NCBI GenBank assembly: GCA_947595635.1
Contig: CANQEU010000002.1
Coordinates: 1-64,000 of the forward strand
Direction of reading: 5' to 3'
Origin: an uncultured Clostridia bacterium
GTDB taxonomy: Bacteria; Bacillota; Clostridia; Oscillospirales; Acutalibacteraceae
DNA: 64,000 nucleotides
Part shown: piece by piece, positions 12,220 through 14,546 of the stretch
Numbering within the stretch: the stretch's first letter is position 1
Layout of the letters: each line of letters opens with the position of its first letter
Program-made: the position numbers and the translations under genes
The notes under the pieces: generated by a model
Told to the model about the DNA's origin: nothing
Seen by the model: the letters and a program-made list of their open reading frames with translations, nothing else
The model's database searches: none

Positions 12220-12277
12220 GATAAAATAAAGATGTAATGAGCTTTTGGATAAACCTTTTTTGACAAGGCTCTCGACT

Positions 12278-12315
12278 AAAGCAGCGTTGCCGGCACAAGT
12301 CGGCAACGCTGCTTT
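12278..12315. terminator. Strong hairpin, probable (bidirectional) terminator after ade
   Basis: AAAGCAGCGTTGCCG-GCACAAGT-CGGCAACGCTGCTTT; 15-bp perfect stem. Confidence 0.7.
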
Positions 12316-12524
12316 GCTATATAATTAAGGCAAAAAGGGGAGTGAAAAAGAACACCTTGAAAGGAAATACAGCAGCGCAAATGGGAAGGAATTTGCGGAT
12401 TGAGTACGGCAGAGCCGTTGAGTGCAGTATGCAGGCAGTGAAATATCCCTGCCGACGATCTTTATTTTTTAACATTTTTTACAGTAAAATTTTTGTGATT
12501 TTGACGATTTTATTCATTTCATAA

Positions 12525-12572
12525 AAATGGTATAATTATCTTGGTTAATTATAGATTAAAAAATAAGGAGGA
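12525..12572 (+). promoter_or_regulatory. Extended -10 promoter and RBS for the dockerin/PepSY gene
   Basis: TGGTATAAT (TATAAT at 12531-12536) and AAGGAGG just upstream of the ATG at 12578; no clear -35. Confidence 0.55.
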
Positions 12573-12577
12573 TTATT

Positions 12578-14425
12578 ATGAAAAAAAGAAATTTCTTGAA
12601 AAAACCGACTGCTTTTTTACTCATTGCACTTATGACGGCGCTCTGTGTGCCATCGGCCTTTGCCGCGCAGCCAAACTCCGCAGCCTCCGAAATAAGGCTA
12701 GGTGACGTTAATTTTGACGGCAATATTAATATATCCGACGCAATATTGGTACAAAAACAAGCTCTGAACATAAAAGGACTTAGAAGCGACGCTGTACCGT
12801 TTTCCGATGTCGACAAAAACGGAGATACCACGGTGGTTGACGCGATTAAGGTGCAAAAGCACGCCTTGAGCATTTTAAAAATCGAAGACGACGTTACAAG
12901 ACACTCTTATTTTGACACAAGCGGACAGATTGTCAGCTACAACGACAGTGCCGAGGTCGATCCGAACAGCAACGGCTATATCGGCGGCAAGAGGGCAAAG
13001 GCTATCGCCTATGAACATGCCGGCGTTACCGAGGACGGCGTAAGACGGCTTGAAATTGAGGTCGACCGCAGAAAAGGAGTTGTTGTCTATGAGGTCGAAT
13101 TTGTAATCGACGGCTATGAGTATGAATACGAAATAGATGTAACAAGCGGTGCAATCGTCCATTCATACAAGGAGCTTGACGACGATTTCCACTTTGACGG
13201 CGACATTGATCCGAGCAACAAGGCATATATCGGCGCACAGAAGGCAAAGGAGATTGCCTATGAACATGCCGGAGTTTCCGTTGACAGCCTTAAAAAGCTT
13301 GAAATAGAGCTGAACCGCAAAAGAGGAGTAGTCGTTTATGAAATAGAATTCGAGTCGGGCGGCTATGAATATGACTATGACATAAACGCGGAGACGGGAG
13401 AAATAGTTACCTCTTATAAGGAGCGCGACAACGATTTTACGGCAGATCCCGGCGTTGTGAATCCAGACAGCGGAAATTATATAGGCGAAAACAGGGCAAA
13501 GGAGATAGCTCTCGGTCATGCCGGACTTAGCGCGGAGAATGTAATAGAGCTTGAAACAGAGCTTGACCGAATAGGCGGAGTTGTTGTATATGAGGTTGAA
13601 TTCAAGTCCGGCGGATATGACTACGATTATTATATAAACGCCGAAAGCGGCGAGATAATAAGCTCGTATAAGGAGCATGACGATTACCGCAAGGACACCG
13701 ATGCTGCGCCTCCGAGCGGCAGTGACTATATCGGAGAGGAAAAAGCAAAGGAGATAGCCCTGAGCCACGCGGGACTGAGCGCGGATAAGGTGAGCGCGCT
13801 TGAAATAGAGCTTGACAGCAAAAGAGGCGTGGTTGTCTATGAGATAGAATTTAAATACGGCGGCTGCGAGTACAACTATGATATAAACGCGGCAAGCGGC
13901 GAGATAGTAAGCTCTTATAAGGAGCTCGACGATCACCAAGACCCAATCATCGACCCTGATAATAATGTCTATATCGGAGAGCAAAAGGCAAAGGAGATAG
14001 CCTTTGCACATGCGGAGGTTTCAGCCGACAGCGTGAGAATGGTTGAAATAGAGCTGGACGTTAAAAGAGGAGTCGTTGTATACGAGATAGAGTTTAAATC
14101 GGGCGGCTTTGAGTATGACTATGATATAAACGCATTTAACGGAGAAGTCATAAGCTCTTATAAGGAGCTGGGAGATTACCGCGACGACACAAACAAATTT
14201 GACCCCGACAGTCAAGATTATATAGGTGAGCAGAGCGCAAAGAGTATAGCCTTGAACCATGCCGGAGTTTCGGAGGGCAGCGTAAGGGAATTTAAGATAG
14301 AGCTTGACCGTGAAAAGGGAAAGGTTTTATATGAAATAGAATTCAAATCCGGCGGCTTTGAGTATGAATACGAGATCGACGCCTATACCGGAGATATCAT
14401 CAAGCACGAAAAGGAAAGAGATTGA
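12578..14425 (+). CDS. Secreted protein: signal peptide, N-terminal dockerin-like module, six tandem PepSY-like domains
   Basis: Signal peptide MKKRNFLKKPTAFLLIALMTALCVPSAFAA; two Ca-loop motifs (DVNFDGNINISD and DVDKNGDTTVVD); six YIGxxxAKxIAxxHA...VVYEIEF...YEYDINA units. Confidence 0.9.
   Translation: MKKRNFLKKPTAFLLIALMTALCVPSAFAAQPNSAASEIRLGDVNFDGNINISDAILVQKQALNIKGLRSDAVPFSDVDKNGDTTVVDAIKVQKHALSILKIEDDVTRHSYFDTSGQIVSYNDSAEVDPNSNGYIGGKRAKAIAYEHAGVTEDGVRRLEIEVDRRKGVVVYEVEFVIDGYEYEYEIDVTSGAIVHSYKELDDDFHFDGDIDPSNKAYIGAQKAKEIAYEHAGVSVDSLKKLEIELNRKRGVVVYEIEFESGGYEYDYDINAETGEIVTSYKERDNDFTADPGVVNPDSGNYIGENRAKEIALGHAGLSAENVIELETELDRIGGVVVYEVEFKSGGYDYDYYINAESGEIISSYKEHDDYRKDTDAAPPSGSDYIGEEKAKEIALSHAGLSADKVSALEIELDSKRGVVVYEIEFKYGGCEYNYDINAASGEIVSSYKELDDHQDPIIDPDNNVYIGEQKAKEIAFAHAEVSADSVRMVEIELDVKRGVVVYEIEFKSGGFEYDYDINAFNGEVISSYKELGDYRDDTNKFDPDSQDYIGEQSAKSIALNHAGVSEGSVREFKIELDREKGKVLYEIEFKSGGFEYEYEIDAYTGDIIKHEKERD
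12977..14425 (+). repeat. Six tandem in-frame PepSY-encoding units (243-252 bp each)
   Basis: Units start at the Tyr codon of YIG at 12977, 13226, 13478, 13727, 13970 and 14219. Confidence 0.9.
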
Positions 14426-14509: not shown

Positions 14510-14546
14510 AAAACCCGAAATCAGGTAATACCGGATTTCGGGTTTT
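14510..14546. terminator. Terminator, probably bidirectional, between the dockerin/PepSY gene and the fkbM-like gene
   Basis: AAAACCCGAAATC-A-GGT-AAT-ACC-G-GATTTCGGGTTTT. Confidence 0.85.

Follow-up and report, generated by a model that had tools for sequence, protein, structure and literature searches.

Six PepSY domains on a dockerin: a candidate amylosome component with an array resembling that of an RsgI-like sensor

Environment sensing in bacteria with amylosomes or cellulosomes is known mainly for sigma-I/RsgI systems with sugar-binding modules, and the sensing modules of C. thermocellum bind what the complex acts on. PepSY domains have several roles elsewhere besides those related to proteases, and those of TseB/CopD and YpeB act with PBPs and SleB. 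A precedent for a module common to an RsgI sensor and a cellulosomal enzyme comes from C. thermocellum, where the GH10 module of RsgI6 is 57% identical to Xyn10D (PMC4711584), and in V. cholerae a sensor domain is the binding target through which the PepSY protein DbfQ acts (PMC12714742). Ruminococcus bromii carries dockerins on GH13 amylases with CBM26 (PMC5814915), encodes 27 dockerin proteins that include only five GH13 enzymes and possesses, in Sas20, a non-catalytic starch-binding dockerin protein (PMC9112005, PMC5814915). In that species, membership of the complex has been examined by releasing proteins with EDTA and by proteomics (PMC9112005). Against this background a dockerin protein free of any enzyme is not unusual, but the PepSY cargo of the protein described here is.

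The gene in question (P0001; 12578..14425, + strand) lies in a 64,000-nucleotide stretch of DNA from a gut bacterium that we refer to as the window, and encodes a protein of 615 amino acids. It has an ATG start with AAGGAGG 6 bases upstream. Orthologues that are 89% and 87% identical over the full length, together with a gene-wide dN/dS of about 0.13 from the orthologue comparison, argue that this is not a chance reading frame and demonstrate that it is under purifying selection. Residues 1-29 (MKKRN...PSAFA; 12578..12664, +) constitute a signal peptide when the translation is judged by eye, and are followed by a type I dockerin at residues 41-94 (12698..12859, +; Pfam PF00404, E=1.5e-7), which scores 32 bits against the Dockerin_1 cut-off of 22.9. 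In addition to this score, the type I assignment draws on two 12-residue calcium-binding F-hand loops, DVNFDGNINISD (residues 43-54; 12704..12739, +) and DVDKNGDTTVVD (residues 77-88; 12806..12841, +), recognised in the translation and when the domain is aligned with the 24 other dockerins that the genome encodes; in a genome-wide dockerin search the protein matches with E=1.3e-8. PepSY (PF03413) is matched in six stretches (E=4.8e-51; 171 bits against a cut-off of 24). From Pfam and repeat comparison, repeats 1 to 5 lie at 12977..13180, 13226..13429, 13478..13681, 13727..13930 and 13970..14173, and from repeat comparison and the repeat tree, repeat 6 lies at 14219..14422 (all +). The repeats are spaced 81-84 amino acids apart and share 54-72% identity. 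Antisense ORFs within the array, such as one of 282 amino acids (13163-14011, -), were treated as probable by-products of repeat coding.

Modelling of the full-length protein by AlphaFold, from a shallow alignment of 19 sequences, yields six alpha-beta4 beads (one helix and four strands each) joined by low-confidence linkers. The mean pLDDT is 64.7, with the PepSY beads moderately confident and the dockerin and linkers poor, and for this reason no relative arrangement of the domains is claimed. The closest folds in the PDB are the C-terminal domain of YpeB (5boi, probability 1.00) and then CD1622 (4exr), both PepSY proteins; many lower matches were beta-propellers with TM-scores near 0.1 and were disregarded. 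Pfam match and modelled alpha-beta4 fold thus both place the beads in the PepSY family. No third family, and no catalytic domain, was found above cut-off in a Pfam scan of the protein. That scan likewise found no fused peptidase domain of the kind expected were the array an M4-type propeptide, no serpin domain and no RsgI_M, a signal peptide and dockerin being present instead of the last. Judged by its domains, therefore, the protein is not itself an anti-sigma factor. These results bear out an original prediction, made from the letters of the DNA, of a secreted 615-residue product with the two dockerin loops as written, six PepSY units and no catalytic domain: both Pfam families are supported, and no characterised homologue with an enzymatic role turned up.

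The same prediction had the gene forming a single-gene unit with its own extended -10 promoter and flanking terminators, and this too is upheld. The extended -10 element of the putative promoter, TGgTATAAT (12528..12536, +), is kept in both orthologues, whilst most other upstream sequence and the flanks further out diverge. A terminator-like 3' inverted repeat (14510..14546, +; -20.7 kcal/mol, z -4.8) is also kept in both, and a strong hairpin between the adenine deaminase gene and the dockerin-PepSY gene (12277..12316, no strand assigned; -32.7 kcal/mol, z -9.95) is likely to be the terminator of the upstream gene; both hairpins fold far better than shuffles. An automatic consensus promoter scan did not report TGgTATAAT at 12528-12536 because there is no good -35 element at 16-18 nt, and the promoter and terminator scan counts were no higher than in shuffled sequence, so the case for a single-gene unit is built on conservation and folding.

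Does the genome offer this dockerin a partner? A search for cohesins found four loci, as the prediction of scaffold docking would have it, alongside 25 dockerin matches (24 besides the 615-residue protein). Several of these dockerins are borne by GH13 amylases with CBM26, and there is one CBM48-GH13-MucBP-CBM26 protein; other carriers are a papain-family protease (the dockerin of which, at 21.5 bits, is just below cut-off), transglutaminase-like, CotH, RCC1-repeat and LRR proteins and two proteins with GH25 muramidase domains. Genes for two M4 peptidases are found at G000:C1:102266 and C16:16379, G000 being the window genome, the second of them a few kb from two GH13-dockerin genes. With dockerin-borne GH13 amylases, starch-binding modules and cohesin proteins all encoded, the system is, on its gene content, of the Ruminococcus bromii amylosome kind. 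This makes docking of the 615-residue protein to a scaffold credible, and the protein may be viewed as a candidate amylosome component.

As regards the cohesins themselves, cohesin-repeat proteins on contig 22 (L074:1-1919, -) and contig 21 (L070:1-1641, +) run off the contig ends and have near-identical cohesin sequences. They are probably parts of one scaffoldin gene split in assembly, with a CBM26-like start, several cohesins and a C-terminal dockerin. Three single-cohesin proteins, on contigs 21 (L071:850-1947), 69 (L072:895-1590) and 56 (L073:1-7414), have membrane segments predicted by eye and are possible surface anchors for dockerin proteins; one exceeds 2,400 amino acids and runs off its contig, and one has an N-terminal zinc-ribbon-like stretch.

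The dockerin-PepSY fusion was seen in three genomes, all from a single genus: the window genome itself and two MAGs derived from rabbit (G152 and G153). Searches with the protein across roughly 900 distinct genomes gave no further example, and 80 loci from a GTDB contig scan added none beyond these two sister genomes; the architecture check covered fetched loci rather than all matches, and the fusion may occur elsewhere. Our literature search, the scope of which excluded subscription papers, found no paper with both 'dockerin' and 'PepSY' and none with 'PepSY domain' and 'RsgI' together, and the combination of dockerin and PepSY appears undescribed within what could be searched. A conserved gene neighbourhood was ruled out: the gene lies between those for adenine deaminase and FkbM in G000 but between BioY and FHA-FtsW genes in G152 and G153. 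The adenine deaminase-FkbM site lacks it in G150 and G151, being occupied by LytTR and DUF3021 genes in the latter.

A genome-wide PepSY search returned ten domains in two genes only, the dockerin-PepSY gene and an RsgI-like gene on contig 26. The product of the latter carries four PepSY repeats, two of them sharing 95% identity, as well as an RsgI_M domain (E=5.4e-26); its gene directly follows an ECF sigma factor gene (the pair spans L075:205-2674, -), with GH13-dockerin genes some 4 kb away. In this genus a PepSY sensor accompanies the dockerin-PepSY protein in each of the three genomes that encode it, and the remaining three lack PepSY domains altogether, though they do have dockerins. The fusion-bearing genomes form one clade in a tree of the three proteins, however, and since the split in the genus coincides with that clade the co-occurrence counts as very few independent events.

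Sampling beyond the genus places the array in a wider context. Among 132 distinct multi-PepSY ORFs in fetched relatives, 70 are RsgI-like and 3 carry dockerins, the other 59 being lipoproteins, secreted, membrane or truncated proteins; in Clostridia, then, PepSY arrays are most often the outer part of RsgI-like anti-sigma proteins. An ECF gene is directly upstream of 56 of the 63 distinct RsgI-PepSY genes and absent from that position in five, two lacking upstream room (56/61 where there is enough upstream sequence), so the ECF and PepSY-RsgI pairing is frequent across the sampled Clostridia. The 'multivalent surface-regulatory' character originally proposed for the protein fits well with an array of the type that these sensors use. 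Further support for a sensor-type array comes from eight loci (L128, L132, L159, L193, L194, L195, L197 and L199) at which a PepSY-RsgI gene has the gene of a distinct secreted PepSY protein nearby, linking the two and suggesting a two-part system of secreted protein and sensor.

The repeat tree gives some indication of where the dockerin-borne array came from. Repeat 6 groups with the final repeat of the sensor in the two sister species, its nearest non-dockerin relative, with moderate support (SH-aLRT 78, UFBoot 83), and repeats 1-5 form one clade, also with moderate support, whilst the sensor repeats of the window species itself fall outside the clade of repeat 6 and the sister sensors. Such a tree fits a history in which a sensor-type array acquired a signal peptide and dockerin and grew longer by subsequent duplication. 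The six-PepSY array is homologous to the outer part of an RsgI-like anti-sigma factor and probably descends from it.

Three species (L075, L126 and L127) share a conserved block before the ECF-rsgI operon, TGCAATAAAA...TGCATTAACC, also written TGCAATAAAAyTGCC...TGCATTAACC, which is a candidate autoregulated promoter. Regulation of the dockerin-PepSY gene by the sensor's sigma factor was considered and rejected: nothing corresponding to the block is conserved ahead of this gene in the three species, and no shared regulon is therefore claimed.

Taken together, these observations lead us to propose that the secreted protein would serve, without catalysis of its own, as an accessory subunit of a cohesin-dockerin complex like the amylosome. 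Docking would be to cohesins of surface proteins, whether scaffoldin-type or anchored in the membrane, and the six acidic PepSY beads would form a multivalent module that binds whatever the PepSY-RsgI/ECF-sigma pair detects outside the cell, a putative ligand that is most likely a protein or a component of the cell envelope. The docked complex, located beside the sensor, would thus accumulate this ligand or share in it. We consider this docked, sensor-type ligand-binding array the most likely function, at a little under an even chance, and favour it because of the RsgI6/Xyn10D and DbfQ precedents. It is supported by the finding that the only other PepSY protein of the genome is an RsgI_M sensor beside an ECF gene and near GH13-dockerin genes, by the co-occurrence of the two proteins in 3/3 genomes and the absence of PepSY from the other three, by the prevalence of RsgI-like proteins and upstream ECF genes in the wider sample and by the grouping of repeat 6 with the terminal sensor repeat of the sister species. 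It is weakened by the lack of linkage between the two genes and of any evident shared promoter sequence, by the moderate tree support and the outlying position of the species' own sensor repeats and by the small number of independent events behind the co-occurrence. We infer that the protein docks and, as the comparisons suggest, that complex and sensor have a ligand in common, along with any effect of the array on ECF signalling.

The original prediction also offered a protease-modulating role, in which the PepSY domains would shield the amylosome by binding secreted peptidases as inhibitors or chaperones, as is thought of cellulosomal serpins. PepSY was first described in M4 propeptides, as cited in PMC10653890, dockerin-borne serpins are known (PMC3413522) and the two M4 peptidases and the dockerin-borne papain-family protease are candidate targets. 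The array, however, is neither fused to nor beside a peptidase, its neighbours being adenine deaminase and FkbM, its relatives are mainly on anti-sigma sensors and not on peptidases, and the orthologues, in their different neighbourhood, have no peptidase among the adjacent genes identified. M4 and papain-type proteases are encoded but nothing links the 615-residue protein to them, and we regard the role as rather unlikely. What endures of the prediction's overall reading is a secreted, non-catalytic dockerin protein with its own transcription unit in a genome with cohesins; protease modulation is without specific support. We think it quite unlikely, too, that the array, carried in trans by the complex, acts on the membrane sensor as a bridge or a competitor and thereby couples amylosome assembly or substrate engagement to ECF-sigma signalling.

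A metal-binding or spacer role is improbable. The beads might take up cations such as calcium or iron, or might do no more than hold the complex out from the surface as an acidic spacer: the mature protein has a pI of 4.4, the array contains 111 D/E against 52 K/R (net charge about -58) and PMC12714742 cites uranium and iron binding by the PepSY protein UipA. Against the former, no discrete metal site was identified in the array. As for the latter, most PepSY repeats have the lowest dN/dS against the window species (0.05-0.1) and the dockerin the highest (0.25-0.3), a repeat-specific conservation of folded-domain residues that exceeds the need of a spacer. Least probable of all is envelope targeting, in which the beads would attach to proteins of peptidoglycan synthesis or lysis and so keep the complex where growth occurs, for although TseB binds PBP2A (PMC10653890), the best fold matches are YpeB and then CD1622 and two dockerin proteins carry GH25 domains, the YpeB match merely restates the PepSY family, the window shows no linkage of the gene to cell-wall genes and the FHA-FtsW gene downstream of it in the orthologue genomes has no dockerin protein beside it in G000.

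With PepSY arrays the common outer part of many ECF-linked RsgI-like sensors in Clostridia, a dockerin-borne array is a natural soluble, multivalent reagent that could serve to fish for their ligand. It could also help to test whether a scaffolded enzyme complex communicates with a surface sensor.

How, then, does the protein compare with known systems? It resembles Sas20 and the other non-catalytic 'Doc' proteins of the R. bromii amylosome in being secreted, in having a dockerin but no catalytic domain and in its genomic setting, which includes GH13-dockerin amylases, CBM26 and cohesins at the surface, but Sas20 bears starch-binding domains (PMC9112005) and the cargo here is six PepSY domains, a family with no known starch binding. 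Like the RsgI sensors of C. thermocellum and A. cellulolyticus (PMC4711584, PMC3413522), it involves a module common to a surface sensor and a dockerin-borne protein; those sensors, however, pair sigma-I with CBM, GH or PA14 modules, as opposed to an ECF-type sigma factor with PepSY. DbfQ, YpeB and TseB/CopD (PMC12714742, PMC10653890) likewise have the PepSY fold and are extracytoplasmic, DbfQ binding a sensor domain, but they are membrane or periplasmic proteins with one to three PepSY domains and no dockerin, compared with six and a dockerin here. Cellulosomal serpins (listed in PMC3413522) also present a dockerin-borne non-catalytic domain with a possible role in protease control, though the 615-residue protein has no serpin domain. 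The protein is best filed among the known non-catalytic dockerin proteins, from which it differs by its PepSY cargo.
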